The notes: generated from the letters alone by a model not told the origin. Shown: positions 33,389-40,201, counted from the first letter of the stretch. The stretch is 64,000 nucleotides of DNA from Nitrospiraceae bacterium (GCA_019637075.1 JAHBWI010000003.1:186001-250000), one strand, 5' to 3'. Numbers and translations: made by a program.

Positions 33389-33907
33389 TTACTGATGGAG
33401 GTGTTTCATAGCCGCAGCACAAAGGATGATGAAGAATCCCATCCATAAGGCGGCGCGCTGAAACGGTACGGCTTCGTAGGCTTCCGACTCGTCCTGCTCA
33501 TCGTCCTCCTCGGATTTGAAGATGACGGTGTAGAGGAAGAGCGTGAGGAGACAGAGCACGAGCAAGAGCTTGATGCAGAAAATCCAGAGATATTTGCCAT
33601 GGTGCTGCATGCCCTGACCGGTCTGGGATGTCAGGACCTGGTTTACGTAGTGAACGTTGATGCCACCGGTAAAGAGCAGCACGACCAGCAACATACCGGC
33701 TACCCGCTTATAGTGCCGGTAAAATGCATCGATGATGGGGCGGATATGTTCCTTGGGCACCCCGCCTTCCTGCATCGCCGGTTTGACAGCCATGGCCAAA
33801 AATGCCAGCCCGCCAATCCAGATGACCGCGGAGACCAGATGAAACCAATGGTTGATGATGGGGATCAACTGGTTGAAGTCGAAAAAGATACTCTGAAGAG
33901 AATCCAT
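33389..33907 (-). CDS. CopD-like four-helix membrane protein
   Basis: A 172-residue integral membrane protein: segments at about 20-42 (HLVSAVIWIGGLAFLAMAV), 68-86, 105-128 and 150-168. The first segment, with its H-x-V-x2-V-I-W-I-G-G pattern and histidines (H20, H23) near the membrane face, resembles the copper-resistance D family. An acidic loop (EEDDEQDESE, about 133-142) is unusual and could bind metal. It is downstream of the radical SAM gene on the same strand, 85 bases away, so possibly part of that operon. Confidence 0.75.
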   Translation of the reverse strand: MDSLQSIFFDFNQLIPIINHWFHLVSAVIWIGGLAFLAMAVKPAMQEGGVPKEHIRPIIDAFYRHYKRVAGMLLVVLLFTGGINVHYVNQVLTSQTGQGMQHHGKYLWIFCIKLLLVLCLLTLFLYTVIFKSEEDDEQDESEAYEAVPFQRAALWMGFFIILCAAAMKHLHQ

Positions 33908-33992: not shown

Positions 33993-35378
33993 TCAGAATT
34001 TGAAGACGGGCGCTTCATTGCCGAAACGTTTCTTCCGCAATTCTTCCATCAATTCGACCGTAATGAGGGCCACACCGTTTTCGCGTGCGTGCCGTTCGAC
34101 CCCTTTCTTCACCATGGCGCGGAGGAAGTAGGGAATCCGGCTGAGGCGGAGCTGCGAGGCCTCGTCCCAGGCCACTTCCGTCTCTTCCGGGGTGTTGAAC
34201 GCGACACGGATTTTCTCGCCGCCCTTTGGTGTATAAAGGCACCACTGGTCTTCATCCAACCAGTCACCGTGGTCCACATAGGGGCGGGCACGGCAGCCGC
34301 CGCAGATGTCCGTGTATTCGCAGTCGCCGCACTTGCCCTTCAGTTGCGGGTAGCGAAATGAATTGAAGATGTCAGAGCGTTCCCAGAGATCGACGAAACT
34401 GGCTTCCCGGACATTTCCCGCAGACAGGGGCATGTAGGGGCAGGGCGTGAGCTCGCCGTTCGGCGTGACCCTCGCATAGTTGGTCCCGGCCAAACAGCCG
34501 CCCCCCATGTATCCGGTCGCTTTGGTCAGCGGGGAATTGGGGTCTTTCTCGTAAGCGAGACGTTTGAAATGCGGGGCGCAACGGGCCCGCACCAACATGT
34601 CCTTGTATTTATCCTGGCAGTCAACCAGGTAACCAAGCACTTCCTCATACTGTTCAGGCGTAATGTCGGTGAGTTCTTCGCCTCGTCCTGTACAGACCAT
34701 GAAGAAGACATTCAGAACGCGGGCGCCAAGGTTGTGGGCCCAATCCACGACCGCAGGCAACTCCTTGTAATTCATCGGCTGAGCGCTGAAATGGATTTGG
34801 AACTGCAGGCCGTTCCGTTTGGCCGCCTCGATACCGGCCACCGCGCTGGCAAAGGCCCCGGAAACGCCGCGGAACCGGTCATGGGTGGCCGCGTCGAGTG
34901 AATCGATGCTGATCCCGACGCCCATCACGCCCATCTCGACGAGCGTCTTGGCCATGCGATCGTTGATCAGCATGCCATTGGTGCCGAACACGACCATGAA
35001 GCCGAGTTCAACCGCGTGCTTCGCGATGTCGAGAATGTCAGGGCGAACCAGTGGCTCGCCGCCCGTGATGACGAGCAGGCAGCCTTTATTCACCTCGGCG
35101 ATCTGGTTGATGAGCCGGAAGCACTCTTCCGTGGTGAGTTCATCTGAGCCTCCCCCTGCCTTGGTCGTCGCATCCAAATAGCAGTGGTCGCACTTGAGGT
35201 TGCAACGCTTGGTCAGGTTGAGGGCGACCAGGTAGGGCTTGAAATCATCGACGGTGCGTCCATCGTTCGGTGCAGGCGACGGCGAATCTGGCGAAAAGAA
35301 CTGTGTGATCTGCTGTTGAAGTGATCCCAGCATTCCTCCCATCGGAGGAACGTTGATGATCGGCAATGACTTACCCAT
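33993..35378 (-). CDS. Radical SAM/SPASM protein with C-terminal PCP_red domain
   Basis: A 461-residue iron-sulfur enzyme. The radical SAM motif C59-x3-C63-x2-C66 (in TKRCNLKCDHCYLD) binds the SAM-cleaving cluster, and GGEPL follows. A cysteine-rich SPASM-type region (CPYMPLS, then CGDCEYTDICGGC) binds auxiliary clusters. The last 60 residues (W-DEASQLRLSRIPYFL to TVELMEEL) match the small PCP_red domain known from the C-terminus of light-independent protochlorophyllide reductase subunit B. General style is close to haem-modifying NirJ/AhbC-type enzymes, but the substrate cannot be fixed. The ATG overlaps the stop of the USP gene (ATGA/TGATG), so the two are coupled. A frame open to 35615 is not the true start. 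Confidence 0.87.
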   Translation of the reverse strand: MGKSLPIINVPPMGGMLGSLQQQITQFFSPDSPSPAPNDGRTVDDFKPYLVALNLTKRCNLKCDHCYLDATTKAGGGSDELTTEECFRLINQIAEVNKGCLLVITGGEPLVRPDILDIAKHAVELGFMVVFGTNGMLINDRMAKTLVEMGVMGVGISIDSLDAATHDRFRGVSGAFASAVAGIEAAKRNGLQFQIHFSAQPMNYKELPAVVDWAHNLGARVLNVFFMVCTGRGEELTDITPEQYEEVLGYLVDCQDKYKDMLVRARCAPHFKRLAYEKDPNSPLTKATGYMGGGCLAGTNYARVTPNGELTPCPYMPLSAGNVREASFVDLWERSDIFNSFRYPQLKGKCGDCEYTDICGGCRARPYVDHGDWLDEDQWCLYTPKGGEKIRVAFNTPEETEVAWDEASQLRLSRIPYFLRAMVKKGVERHARENGVALITVELMEELRKKRFGNEAPVFKF

Positions 35379-37480
35379 CAGCGCCCGGCCCCGGTCTTCG
35401 GACCGGTCAGGTTGGCAATCATGTCTTTCAGATTGCCCGTCTTCATCGCTTCCGCCATGTAGCCCTTGGCCTGATCGATTCCTTCGGTGGCGACTTCCAG
35501 CGTGATGATGGTGGCGCCGATCTTTTCTGCATGTTTTTCGATCAACGCGCGCGTACATTCCCGCATGAATCCCTCGGGAGCTCGATCGAGGCGTGCCTGC
35601 GCATCTGCGGTCCAAGTGTAGGAAGAGGCGGGGGCTTCAGCGGTGGTACCCTCCTCCGCACCATTTCCGTTGGCCGTGGTGCCGTTGCCATTGGCCTGGT
35701 CCAGCATGGCTGCCGCTTCAGGCGCGGTTCCAGTTCCCTTGTTGGCGAAAATCGGCTGGTAGTCTTCGGCTGCCGCTTCTTGGATCATCGGGCCGGCATA
35801 TTCGAGCGTAATTGTCGTCATGCCCAGTTTGCGAGCGCTCTTCTCGATCTTGGCCTTGGCGCGACGACGCTGGAAGCCGGCAGGGACGGCCCTGATCGCT
35901 TCCTTGGCATCCTTGGTCCATTGCATCGGAATGTCGTCGTAGGCCACATCCATTTCCAAGCCGCCTTCGGTTTTCGCGGCGGATTCGAAAATCGACTTGT
36001 CGACCTGCTTAAACCGATTGCCTTCGGCGGAGCAGACGGGACACTTCACCGGAGTATCGCCCTTGCCGATGTAACCGCAGCCGTCGCAGACGAAATAATT
36101 CTGGCTCATACGATCCAGATACGCCTGAGTCGTGGAAGTGGGGGCCGGCTTCTCTTCGACCACCTTCGTCATCATACCGCTGAGCGTAGACCCCATGAGA
36201 TCCTGCGCAACCGCGTCATCCGCCTGCATTCTGTCACGGTCGATGCCGGAGGCGTCGAGGTTTCCGCCCAACGCGCGCATGGCATCCATAGCGCCCTTCG
36301 GCAGGATATGGCCCACGGCCGAGTCGACCACGGTGTTGCTGATGATAGTATGGCCCTTCTCGATCGCATAACGGTGAATGGCAGTCTTGGCTACGCCTCG
36401 GGCGAAGACGGGAATCTTCTCCATTCGACGCAAGGCTTCTTCCGTCCAGGCAATCGTGTACTCGGCCTGCGTGTCGATGGGCGGCACGTACTTGCGGTTG
36501 GAGATCAAGATATTGCAGGGAGCAGCGCGCAACAGGTTCTCGGTGTTGCTGCCGATGTCCATGTCCTCGTCGCTGTGGACGCCGATGCGGCCGACGATCA
36601 ACAGCGCCGGGTTTTCCTTCCGCACGTATTGAATGATCTTCTCGAAGGCCTTTCCGTCCAGCAAAGTGGTCTTGATGTCGGTTTCTTCGGCCTGCGCGAT
36701 TTCGCGGGAGATGTCGAGGTGTGACTGATAGATCTTGGCCAGCCCGCTGTCGATGACCTCTTCATGCAGCTTCTCTTGTTCCTTGAAACGGAAGACCTTT
36801 CCGGCCTCCTCGTTGAGCACCCCGGAGATGCTGTGGAATGCCGCGTAATGGAAGTAGGGGTCAAAGGCGGAAATGGCTTCGACCGGACGGTTGAACGCCT
36901 TGCCCAAGGCAAGGGCCGTCATGAGTCCGCCGAATGAATAGGGGCTGCCGTCCACCGCGACGACAATCTTACCGTTGCCCATCGGCTGGGTCTGCTTGAT
37001 GATGAGCATGTCCGAATTGCGGATGCGGCGAAGGACCCGTTCGGTATTACTGCCGATCACACTGTCTTTGACTGCGCCGACGCCAAGCGCGCCCATGATC
37101 ACTAGGTCATAGGCATTGGCGGCGATATCTTCGGCCAGAACTTTCCAGTTCCGACCTTCCAGCGAGCGGCGCTCCACCGGCAGGTTCGCCTCCGTGCATT
37201 TCTTGTCGACGTAGTCGAGATAGGAGTCGGTGATGATCTGGAGCCCGCGGGTGATCAGCGAGTCGTGAATCTGGCGCTGGCGGTCGAGTTCCTTCTCGTC
37301 ATGATATTCCTCGGGAAGGCCCGCTTCCATCTGCTTGAACCGTTTATCGTGCATTTTGGCCGCGTAGACGTGGCTCCCAACGATTTTGGAGCCGAACATC
37401 TTCGCGAGCTCGATTCCCACGTCGACCGCTTGGTTGGAATGGTCGGAGTTATCGACGGGGATATAGATCGTCTTGTACAT
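35378..37480 (-). CDS. Tandem universal-stress protein with zinc ribbon and three PCP_red domains
   Basis: A 700-residue cytoplasmic protein of unusual build. USP domain 1 (about 1-163) and 2 (about 169-330) both keep the ATP-binding G-x2-G-x9-G-S pattern (G130-S144 and G297-S311). PCP_red copies occupy about 345-388, 521-565 and 623-667, each with W-x3-A, a central P-x-F/G-F-x-R and a final ITxE-like strand. A rubrerythrin-type ribbon C465-x2-C468-x11-C480-x2-C483 lies between copies 1 and 2. PCP_red domains are otherwise known from tetrapyrrole/Fe-S enzymes. AGGAGG precedes the ATG. It heads the operon with the PCP_red radical SAM gene. Function is unknown; a redox- or tetrapyrrole-linked stress carrier is conceivable. 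Confidence 0.88.
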   Translation of the reverse strand: MYKTIYIPVDNSDHSNQAVDVGIELAKMFGSKIVGSHVYAAKMHDKRFKQMEAGLPEEYHDEKELDRQRQIHDSLITRGLQIITDSYLDYVDKKCTEANLPVERRSLEGRNWKVLAEDIAANAYDLVIMGALGVGAVKDSVIGSNTERVLRRIRNSDMLIIKQTQPMGNGKIVVAVDGSPYSFGGLMTALALGKAFNRPVEAISAFDPYFHYAAFHSISGVLNEEAGKVFRFKEQEKLHEEVIDSGLAKIYQSHLDISREIAQAEETDIKTTLLDGKAFEKIIQYVRKENPALLIVGRIGVHSDEDMDIGSNTENLLRAAPCNILISNRKYVPPIDTQAEYTIAWTEEALRRMEKIPVFARGVAKTAIHRYAIEKGHTIISNTVVDSAVGHILPKGAMDAMRALGGNLDASGIDRDRMQADDAVAQDLMGSTLSGMMTKVVEEKPAPTSTTQAYLDRMSQNYFVCDGCGYIGKGDTPVKCPVCSAEGNRFKQVDKSIFESAAKTEGGLEMDVAYDDIPMQWTKDAKEAIRAVPAGFQRRRAKAKIEKSARKLGMTTITLEYAGPMIQEAAAEDYQPIFANKGTGTAPEAAAMLDQANGNGTTANGNGAEEGTTAEAPASSYTWTADAQARLDRAPEGFMRECTRALIEKHAEKIGATIITLEVATEGIDQAKGYMAEAMKTGNLKDMIANLTGPKTGAGR

Positions 37481-37649: not shown

Positions 37650-39296
37650 CTAACTCACTGAACCAACAGCAGACTTTTCGGTTGGAGTGGAAGGCGATTG
37701 GGAAGGTCTTCGCGACCGCAAAATCTCTTCCAAGGTCAGCAACGCTTCACGCCCCGAGTTATTCTGCACCCCGCGAATCAGATTGCCGTCGGCGTACTGG
37801 CTCGTGGGCTGGGCCTGAGCCTGGTCGGGGCCGGTTTGAGAAAGTGATCCGGTCCAGGCGCGCGGGTCACGGCTGCCTTCCTTACGTTGCCAGGCTGTGA
37901 GGCAAGCCTTGGCGATCAGTTTGTTCAGAGGGGCAGGATTGTAGAGCAGCTTTCTGATGCTGGTCGGGGTCAGCATCAAGGGGTTATACCCGGCCGAGAG
38001 GTACCCTTCCTCCAGCAGGCGATGTTCAAGATCGGTGTTGGGCTGGATGCCCAGGAAGAACATCAAGGGGAACACTCGCTCTTCGCCAAGGATCGAGGCA
38101 ACCTTCTTGTAAGACTCGACGCTCTGAAGCAGGCTCTCTTCGGTTTCCTTTGGGGAGTTGAGCGAATAGTTCAGGATGACCTTGCCCTTGAAGCCGGCTT
38201 CGGCCAGATAGCGACATCCATCATAGAGGCGCTCGAGCTTGAACCCCATATGGAGGTTGTTCAGGACCTCCTGTGATCCGGACGTGATGGCCACTTCCAA
38301 ATCTCCGACGCCTGATCGCACCATCAGCCTGGCCAGCTCGGGCGTGATCAAAGAGGTTCGGATATACCCCGACCATTCGATCTCCAGCTTTTCGCTGAGG
38401 ATTCGTTCCAGGATCTCAGTGCACTGTGGATAAGCCTCTTTGCCCGTGATGAATTGGGCGTCGGTAAACCAGAACCGGCGCGCTCCCCACTGATGATAAT
38501 GTTGGGCAATGTCACGGACCACCATCTCCGGGGGCCGATACCGCACACGTTTGCCTTCAATATAGGGATACAGACAGAAGGCGCAGTCATAAGGACAGCC
38601 GCGCTTGGTTTGTACCCCGATCGACTCGTCCTGATATGCCGCATGTTGCGGGAAAATCGACGTGAGATAGGGCAGGTCGACGGTCAGGGTATCCAATAAG
38701 GCCGGAGCCCGCTGCTCGCCTTTGCGGATGTGCTTGCCTTCGCGAACGATATACCGCTCACCTTCAAGGGATTCGCCGTTGACCACCTTGAGGATGGCAT
38801 CTTCTCCTTCACCGAGGATGCCGATCGTGCCTTCCGGCAGCTTCTCGATCAGCTGTTCGGCAAAGGCCGTGAACGCGCCCCCTCCGACCATGATCTGGCT
38901 CTTGGGGAACTCTTTGCGAATGAGCCAGGGGTAGGACAGGTTGGCCCGAATATGGCTGTAGTACCGGTAGAGCTGCTTCAAACCAGCGAAGGAAGCCATG
39001 ACCCGCTTCATCGGGTTGCTGGCGAAATAGAAATTGAAGGCGTGTTCCAGCGAGGCGTCCCCTTCGTGGGGAGAGAAAATCTGGATGTCGCGCCAGGAGA
39101 AACACACCAGGTCCGGTTTGAACTCGAGGGCCGTATCCCGAACCGCCTGGGTCCGCTGGGATTCCGAAAAAAGCGACAGATCGAGGATCCGTTGGCGGAC
39201 ATCGGGCCTTCGGCGGTGGATAAAGTCGGCCAGGTACGTCACCCCGATCGGGTAGACCTTCTTGCAGGGGAGAAAGATGTAGAGAATGGAATTCAT
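37650..39296 (-). CDS. B12-binding-type radical SAM protein
   Basis: A 548-residue enzyme. The N-terminal 200 residues look like the cobalamin-binding Rossmann region of class-B radical SAM proteins (ITYLADFI-like start, VCFSWRDIQIFS, MVGGGAF, ILGEGEDAIL), and the core has CPYDCAFC (C-x3-C-x2-C) followed by WFTDAQF and the late GxIQPNTDLE-type strand. The last 80 residues are Gln/Ser/Pro-rich and probably disordered. BchE-type and hopanoid-modifying enzymes have this layout, but the substrate here is unknown. No ribosome-binding site is seen. It lies between the USP operon and the methyltransferase on the same strand. Confidence 0.85.
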   Translation of the reverse strand: MNSILYIFLPCKKVYPIGVTYLADFIHRRRPDVRQRILDLSLFSESQRTQAVRDTALEFKPDLVCFSWRDIQIFSPHEGDASLEHAFNFYFASNPMKRVMASFAGLKQLYRYYSHIRANLSYPWLIRKEFPKSQIMVGGGAFTAFAEQLIEKLPEGTIGILGEGEDAILKVVNGESLEGERYIVREGKHIRKGEQRAPALLDTLTVDLPYLTSIFPQHAAYQDESIGVQTKRGCPYDCAFCLYPYIEGKRVRYRPPEMVVRDIAQHYHQWGARRFWFTDAQFITGKEAYPQCTEILERILSEKLEIEWSGYIRTSLITPELARLMVRSGVGDLEVAITSGSQEVLNNLHMGFKLERLYDGCRYLAEAGFKGKVILNYSLNSPKETEESLLQSVESYKKVASILGEERVFPLMFFLGIQPNTDLEHRLLEEGYLSAGYNPLMLTPTSIRKLLYNPAPLNKLIAKACLTAWQRKEGSRDPRAWTGSLSQTGPDQAQAQPTSQYADGNLIRGVQNNSGREALLTLEEILRSRRPSQSPSTPTEKSAVGSVS

Positions 39297-39388
39297 AGAA
39301 GGTGATCGCTAATGGCGCCTAGCTTATGGCAGAAACCAGACCACTCTCTTCAAGCTCAGGCTATCACCCATGCGCGACAGGCTCGTTG

Positions 39389-40165
39389 CTATTTTGTTGC
39401 CACGTGGATCGCCACGATTCCGCCTGTCAGGTTTCGGTATTCCACGGTGCGGAATCCGGCTTCCTTCAGCAGGGCGGCAAGCCGCTCCTGGTCAGGGAAG
39501 GTGCGGATCGAGGCAGGAAGATATTCATAGACACCGGTTTGGTCCCCGGCCACTTTGGTGCCGACCCAGGGCAAGAGGCGGAACGAGTACCAATCATAGA
39601 GGTTCCTGAGCCACCCATAGACCGGTCGCGAAAACTCCAAGCAGACGAACCGGCCGCCGGGGCGGAGGACGCGCCGGATTTCCATAAACGCCTGCATCAA
39701 ATTACCCACGTTTCTCATGCAGAACCCGGTCGTGACCGCATGGAAGGTATCGTCCGGAAAACCCAGGCGTTCCGCATTAGCCTGGAGGCAGGTGATGCGG
39801 GATTGCAGCCCGCGGCTTGACACCTTCCGCCAGCCTTCCGCCAGCATCGCATAATTTAAGTCCGAGGCGACCACATGTCCGCCTTGTCCCATCTTGGGCT
39901 CAATCAGCAATGCCAGGTCTGCCGTACCGGCACCGATATCCAGCGCACGGCCTTGATTGACCTCAGGTACATACGAGGCCGTGAGTCGCTTCCAGTGATA
40001 ATGAAGCCCAAAACTCAGCAGGGTATTGTTGAGGTCATAAACGCCCGCAATCGCGGTGAACATCCGCTGAACGGCCTGTTCCCGAGCCTGGCCAGACCAG
40101 GTGGAGACCGCCTGAGGCGCGGCCGACGATTGCTGGGGGATAGAGGGGTCCTCAACACGCAGCAT
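39389..40165 (-). CDS. menG: Demethylmenaquinone/ubiquinone methyltransferase UbiE/MenG
   Basis: About 258 residues. SAM-dependent C-methylation of the quinone ring, the last step of menaquinone synthesis. Family motifs: FTAIAGVYDLNNTLLSFG (MFDxIAxxYDxxN type), SAM motif ALDIGAGTADLAL, FCMRNV, RVLRPGGRFVCLEFS, then LLPWVG and the AGD-Q/Y-YLPASI stretch typical of UbiE. The start is taken at ATG 40165; a TTG at 40201 would lie on a consensus -35 hexamer. No ribosome-binding site is seen at either, consistent with a leaderless message. Symbol menG rather than ubiE is inferred from the respiratory style of the genome. Confidence 0.92.
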   Translation of the reverse strand: MLRVEDPSIPQQSSAAPQAVSTWSGQAREQAVQRMFTAIAGVYDLNNTLLSFGLHYHWKRLTASYVPEVNQGRALDIGAGTADLALLIEPKMGQGGHVVASDLNYAMLAEGWRKVSSRGLQSRITCLQANAERLGFPDDTFHAVTTGFCMRNVGNLMQAFMEIRRVLRPGGRFVCLEFSRPVYGWLRNLYDWYSFRLLPWVGTKVAGDQTGVYEYLPASIRTFPDQERLAALLKEAGFRTVEYRNLTGGIVAIHVATK

Positions 40166-40171
40166 GCCAGC

Positions 40172-40201
40172 GTGGTAGCACCCAGTTTCAAGCTTTGTCA
40201 A
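40172..40201 (-). promoter_or_regulatory. Promoter abutting the menG start (possible leaderless transcript)
   Basis: Read leftward: perfect TTGACA (40201-40196), 18-base spacer, then TGC-TACCAC, an extended -10 of moderate quality, ending six bases before ATG 40165. There is no ribosome-binding site between, so initiation at or next to the ATG is expected. Confidence 0.45.

Follow-up and report, generated by a model that had tools for sequence, protein, structure and literature searches.

A tandem universal stress protein with PCP_red domains is paired with a radical SAM enzyme in Nitrospira and co-occurs with cytochrome bd-like oxidases

Nitrospira, the most widespread nitrite oxidisers, encode a protein in which two universal stress protein (USP) domains are joined to three PCP_red domains and a cysteine ribbon. 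Its gene is coupled to that of a radical SAM enzyme that carries a PCP_red domain of its own (hereafter referred to as rSAM_PCP), and in the phylum Nitrospirota its presence closely follows that of the cytochrome bd-like oxidases. We tentatively propose, with a confidence somewhat short of probable, that the protein binds ATP and, with its PCP_red domains, serves as the scaffold of a radical SAM enzyme that produces or handles a tetrapyrrole destined for bd-like respiratory complexes. Since the gene set follows the bd-like oxidase with almost no exception among the members of the phylum sampled and includes a radical enzyme of the haem-side-chain type, oxidase assembly and haem content become directly testable; PCP_red, for its part, is placed outside photosynthesis and beside a definite partner. 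The stretch of DNA analysed comprises 64,000 nucleotides from a Nitrospiraceae bacterium (GCA_019637075.1, JAHBWI010000003.1:186001-250000; hereafter the window); its relevant features, and the PCP_red proteins of the host genome, are collected in Table 1. Neither RNA families nor tRNAs were found in the window.

Table 1. Features of the window and PCP_red proteins of the host genome
Feature	Position	Strand	Remarks
Small CopD-like membrane protein	33389..33907	-	PF05425 21.5 bits, sub-threshold; about 4 TM; conserved HWxHL; downstream of rSAM_PCP
rSAM_PCP (radical SAM/SPASM, AhbD/NirJ2-like)	33993..35378	-	PF04055, PF13186, PF08369
PCP_red of rSAM_PCP (C-terminal)	34035..34169	-	PF08369 57 bits
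USP-PCP_red ORF	35378-37480	-	700 aa
PCP_red 3	35489..35614	-	residues ~623-664; PF08369 42.1 bits
PCP_red 2	35801..35920	-	from residue 521; PF08369 41.8 bits
Rubrerythrin-type ribbon	36005..36106	-	residues 459-492; C465/C468/C480/C483 (CxxC...CxxC)
PCP_red 1	36317..36448	-	residues 345-388; PF08369 53.1 bits
USP domain 2	36497..36973	-	residues 170-328; second PF00582 stretch; ATP motif at residue 297
USP domain 1	36992..37480	-	residues 1-163; PF00582; ATP motif GALGVGAVKDSVIGS at residue 130
B12-binding/radical SAM protein, Slr0320-like	37650..39296	-	NF045585 445 bits, cut-off 775; upstream neighbour
MpqE, methyl-plastoquinone methyltransferase	39389..40201	-	NF052510 409 bits, above cut-off
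Host PCP_red protein 1			USP-PCP_red, 3 domains
Host PCP_red protein 2			rSAM_PCP, 1 domain
Host PCP_red protein 3			ribbon + 2 domains, after ApbC/NUBPL-type ATPase
Host PCP_red protein 4			4-domain protein
Host PCP_red protein 5	L045:7085-11154		ribbon + 2 domains, between DUF420 and bd-like oxidase

Pfam recognised Usp (PF00582) in the open reading frame with 119 bits over two stretches and PCP_red (PF08369) with 114.8 bits over three (E 1.8e-33). Both USP domains contain the motif G2xG9xG(S/T), from which ATP binding is likely, its purpose not being given by the motif. The second domain also features a family-specific motif, FRFKEQEKLHEE(V/I)IDSGLAKIYQ, defined by residues invariant among 16 divergent homologues. 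A full-length AlphaFold2 model (pLDDT 62; low global confidence, with the domains locally recognisable) retrieved tandem USP folds in Foldseek, including that of ATP-bound TTHA0350 (3ab8). A second model, of residues 335-700 (window 35381-36478), likewise had low global confidence (pLDDT 60), in both cases probably because close homologues alone were supplied.

PCP_red is the C-terminal domain of BchB/ChlB of the dark protochlorophyllide reductase (DPOR) of chlorophyll synthesis, and 2KRU and 2L09 are solved examples of it. The first-pass annotation had read the protein as USP-USP-PCP_red-ribbon-PCP_red-PCP_red and had looked to repeated PF08369 matches and a PCP_red-like predicted structure as its tests. 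Pfam and the six-frame scan bear out this order, the ribbon itself lying just under the Pfam cut-off, and each of the three PCP_red segments, scored alone in the six-frame scan, exceeds the gathering score of 32.5 bits. The predicted structure agrees as well: the top PDB folds for residues 335-700 were 2L09 and 2KRU (rmsd 1.5 A, TM to target 0.67/0.77, probability 1.00), with Foldseek E-values of 0.04-0.1, modest because each PCP_red domain is small, and with an alignment not tied to a given one of the three. Rubrerythrin and nigerythrin were the next folds. The ribbon scored 24.1 bits against RUBY_RBDX (PF21349; E 2.4e-5), below the cut-off of 26.5, and matched the nigerythrin NCBIfam model with an E-value of 2e-7. 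After the PCP_red structures, the C-terminal model also retrieved parts of the AAA+ proteins RuvB, RuvBL and MCM (~2-3 A over ~50 residues, E near 1), which hints at a possible likeness of PCP_red to a helical unit such as the lid of AAA+ proteins. We identified no haem-binding motif in PCP_red, and a search of the open literature, which leaves aside most subscription papers, returned nothing on the function of PF08369/PCP_red. Among 40 aligned Nitrospira proteins, conservation was highest in the USP domains and the first two PCP_red domains (92-96% identity), reached 88% in the ribbon and was lowest in the second linker (55%). Since the architecture is kept in these 40 proteins and, with three or five PCP_red domains, in the class's other families, it is not a chance assembly.

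The host genome contains 12 PCP_red domains in five open reading frames of 258-708 residues (six-frame PF08369 scan), and genomes of the same family contain 10-12. The earlier remark that no photosynthesis gene is present holds for a photosynthetic DPOR, as none of the five is a nitrogenase-like BchB: the BchB body is absent from the 700-residue protein, as judged by Pfam, and from the other four, as judged by size and sequence. A remnant of photosynthetic DPOR was accordingly rejected as the source of the 12 domains. In the host, the gene for a cysteine ribbon with two PCP_red domains that adjoins the ApbC/NUBPL-type ATPase lies within a sulfate-assimilation cluster (L043:8248-9981); a similar gene lies near such an ATPase and other PCP_red genes in another family (L052:9263-10877). 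Many genomes of the Nitrospirota family f19 (e.g. G010, G028, G037) lack the USP module and have just one PCP_red match. The proximity to an ApbC/NUBPL-type Fe-S ATPase at these two loci, the recurrence of four-Cys ribbons and the membership of PCP_red in DPOR, itself an Fe-S enzyme, would fit a device for Fe-S assembly, repair or electron delivery in place of one for tetrapyrroles. We regard this as improbable, because no Fe-S assembly gene was seen beside the USP-rSAM pair and the radical SAM subgroup is a tetrapyrrole one.

The start codon of rSAM_PCP, the next gene downstream, overlaps the stop codon of the USP gene by one base (TGATG). The best NCBIfam models of its product are NirJ2 (TIGR04055, 320 bits) and AhbD (TIGR04545, 319 bits), both with a cut-off of 500 bits, so that the enzyme is AhbD/NirJ-like and a member of neither equivalog. 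The three radical SAM cysteines (CxxxCxxC) and eight further cysteines, including those of the SPASM region, are kept in 21/21 sequences. AhbD and NirJ work on the propionate side chains of haem (PMC7242693), and by analogy the substrate of rSAM_PCP is probably a tetrapyrrole. Since the enzyme belongs to the SPASM family and matches PqqE and mycofactocin models too, it could instead mature a peptide or protein, with the USP-PCP_red protein carrying the substrate. This seems very unlikely to us: those matches are far weaker (8e-33 for PqqE, against about 1e-95 for the models of tetrapyrrole side-chain enzymes), and no precursor peptide gene was recognised in an unsystematic look.

Most other Nitrospirota have a shorter AhbD-like paralogue without PCP_red, which forms a clade of its own in an unrooted tree; the five tested reached 443-449 bits against TIGR04545, under the cut-off too. 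The host genome has a ferrochelatase next to a HemY-type oxidase and four proteins of the Chlor_dismutase/HemQ family (C1:699483, C15:2692, C8:52202, C3:626791), with no match to siroheme decarboxylase (AhbA/B, PF17805) and no CtaA. On this inventory a second haem b route is possible and not required. A role of rSAM_PCP as the AhbD of a siroheme pathway is unsupported in a host that lacks PF17805 and has the ferrochelatase and HemY-type oxidase, and a role in haem A supply was rejected for want of CtaA. The closeness to AhbD, with which some organisms complete the coproporphyrin pathway (PMC7242693), and the ferrochelatase-HemY pair raise the prospect that rSAM_PCP and the scaffold form an alternative haem b synthase that, like AhbD, would make haem b from coproheme at low oxygen. 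We think it doubtful at best: the four Chlor_dismutase-family proteins could include ChdC, several genomes (G111, G176, G228) have both the AhbD-like paralogue and rSAM_PCP, and 13 group-specific positions set the PCP_red-bearing enzymes apart from the AhbD-like proteins.

The gene order MpqE - Slr0320-like - USP - rSAM_PCP - CopD-like is nearly fixed in Nitrospira (57/60, 61/69, 58/62 and 61/62 loci, in that order and with the USP gene as the reference); the 58/62 for the USP/rSAM_PCP adjacency refers to loci with room downstream. As the MpqE and Slr0320-like genes lie upstream of the USP gene in almost every one of these loci (37650-40201 in the window), the Slr0320-like protein might serve methyl-plastoquinone synthesis. 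In Nitrospira itself the neighbours of the pair are quinone genes and include no bd-like oxidase, which tells against the proposal made here.

The USP-PCP_red protein was found in all 62 genomes sampled of the same family (Nitrospiraceae; 84-91% identity; the G112 copy is a fragment), in 15 of the 16 genomes of the order's other family (79-82%) and in 9/11 genomes of the class's other families (about 58-66%), with one more as a fragment. The best 80 of 566 relatives are all from Nitrospira or near it, and the best named ones are from Nitrospira species (89% for Ca. N. defluvii). Within the class, the protein has either three PCP_red domains and one ribbon or five PCP_red domains and three ribbons. 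Beyond it, the families f12, f18 and f36 have two PCP_red domains, and f26, f27, f31 and f37 encode a tandem USP of about 360-430 residues that has no PCP_red and whose gene adjoins a PCP_red-bearing radical SAM gene. The two genes are adjacent in further families of this order and class, and also in 9/10 loci of the distant families whose USP lacks PCP_red; in the tenth (G156, f28) they are on the same contig, apart. Two genomes of f18 and G008 encode a fusion of the radical SAM enzyme with the four-PCP_red protein; such a fusion is seen in G049 (locus L057). The adjacency in distant loci and the varying domain counts indicate that USP and rSAM_PCP form the stable core and that the PCP_red number varies on the USP side, the direction of this change being inferred. 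A highly conserved soluble protein of about 240 residues, without a Pfam match and with motifs resembling YFSAHLPVM, VKGIGL and YQPDYPFGYLI, adjoins rSAM_PCP or USP in seven distant loci (L149:7882-8646, L059, L144, L150-L153).

In three distant loci (L145, L147, L148) the rSAM_PCP and USP genes immediately precede that of a bd-like oxidase in one operon, behind which come a NarJ-like chaperone, a molybdoenzyme and cytochromes c, and in two more (L057, L059) bd-like genes lie near the pair. Published work refers to these enzymes as bd-like or OR-N oxidases, one of which has been proposed as the Nitrospira terminal oxidase (PMC6606698, PMC12342949). The bd-like family is present in 112/246 genomes of the phylum sample, including all 89 of the host's class. 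We compared it with strong USP homologues in this Nitrospirota sample: among the 157 genomes outside the class, 23 have both, 2 the USP only, 0 the bd-like family only and 132 neither (agreement 155/157; Fisher 1.3e-25). In the five families with mixed presence the two agree in 35/36 genomes (exact chance 6e-6). Because the genomes are related, these p-values overstate independence, and the within-family comparison controls for relatedness only in part. A type II molybdoenzyme was also considered as the real correlate and rejected: a close relative of the enzyme at L059 occurs in 10/246 genomes, and G140 has the enzyme without the module. The distribution of this enzyme is thus not that of the module, and the bd-like family is the better match.

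The protein could instead be mainly a regulator, its tandem USP sensing ATP or oxygen and switching respiratory components, with PCP_red providing protein-protein contacts and rSAM_PCP as a target, not a cofactor partner. Several UspA proteins of Nitrospira marina, this one perhaps among them, rose most under low oxygen and adjoin co-regulated operons (PMC8115632), and a CRP-type regulator gene precedes the L145 operon, L147 having a homologue in the corresponding position. We hold this unlikely, since identity within the family extends over all 700 residues with an invariant motif, and the fixed pairing with one enzyme that carries the same PCP_red domain points to a dedicated partner.

We return to the scaffold proposal. 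The USP-PCP_red protein would be the large ATP-binding scaffold partner of the AhbD/NirJ-type rSAM_PCP, its tandem USP part binding ATP and linking the complex to the cell's energy status or oxygen status. The PCP_red domains of the scaffold, of rSAM_PCP and of the three further proteins would be docking or carrier modules for the enzyme, its tetrapyrrole or both, and the rubrerythrin-like ribbon may coordinate Fe or Zn, either for electron transfer or for structural purposes. The assembly would make, modify or deliver a haem-type cofactor to bd-like (OR-N) oxidases and the associated nitrite/nitrate respiratory complexes. In its favour are the USP/rSAM_PCP adjacency (58/62 Nitrospira and 9/10 distant loci) and the fusion in G049; an enzyme that keeps all its Fe-S cysteines and whose best models are tetrapyrrole side-chain enzymes; and the three operons, the co-occurrence and the host gene for a ribbon with two PCP_red domains between DUF420 and a bd-like oxidase. 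Of the idea of a stress protein handling a tetrapyrrole or redox cofactor, the tetrapyrrole link is supported indirectly, through an AhbD/NirJ2-like partner with its own PCP_red; a stress role is at most putative, and what the USP domains resemble is a partner of rSAM_PCP that binds ATP. A bolder version, in which the scaffold and the AhbD-paralogous radical SAM enzyme constitute an undescribed maturation system supplying the bd-like OR-N oxidases, presumed to be the terminal oxidases of Nitrospira, with a modified haem of a new kind, is unlikely, and we rate it only slightly above a regulatory role.

A USP joined to a PCP_red-type domain has been noted, from automatic annotation, in Methanomicrobiaceae (PMC12159084), which means that a fusion of this sort has a precedent. 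The combination was first described as highly unusual; unusual it is, yet the protein is universal in Nitrospira, and the methanogen protein shares USP and the same domain type. The accessible part of that account mentions neither the tandem USP with three PCP_red domains and a ribbon nor a radical SAM partner, and in the open literature, with most subscription papers outside our scope, we found no description of the three-PCP_red/ribbon form, the radical SAM partner or the bd-like tie. The bd-like OR-N oxidases of Nitrospira are tied to the module by co-occurrence and, in distant relatives, by operon, and their published accounts, as far as accessible, include no maturation system (PMC6606698, PMC12342949).

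The likeness to BchB/ChlB lies in the three segments above cut-off and the modelled fold match; unlike BchB/ChlB, the Nitrospira protein lacks the nitrogenase-like catalytic part and has PCP_red tripled and joined to USP and a ribbon. rSAM_PCP resembles AhbD haem b synthase and NirJ2 in its best models and in keeping all Fe-S cysteines, and differs from them in its score (~320 bits, cut-off 500), its extra PCP_red domain and a host without siroheme decarboxylase. With the tandem universal stress proteins TTHA0350, Rv2623 and UspE the protein shares two USP domains, the best PDB folds and the ATP motif in both domains, to which it adds the C-terminal PCP_red/ribbon extension, conserved family motifs and a fixed radical SAM partner.
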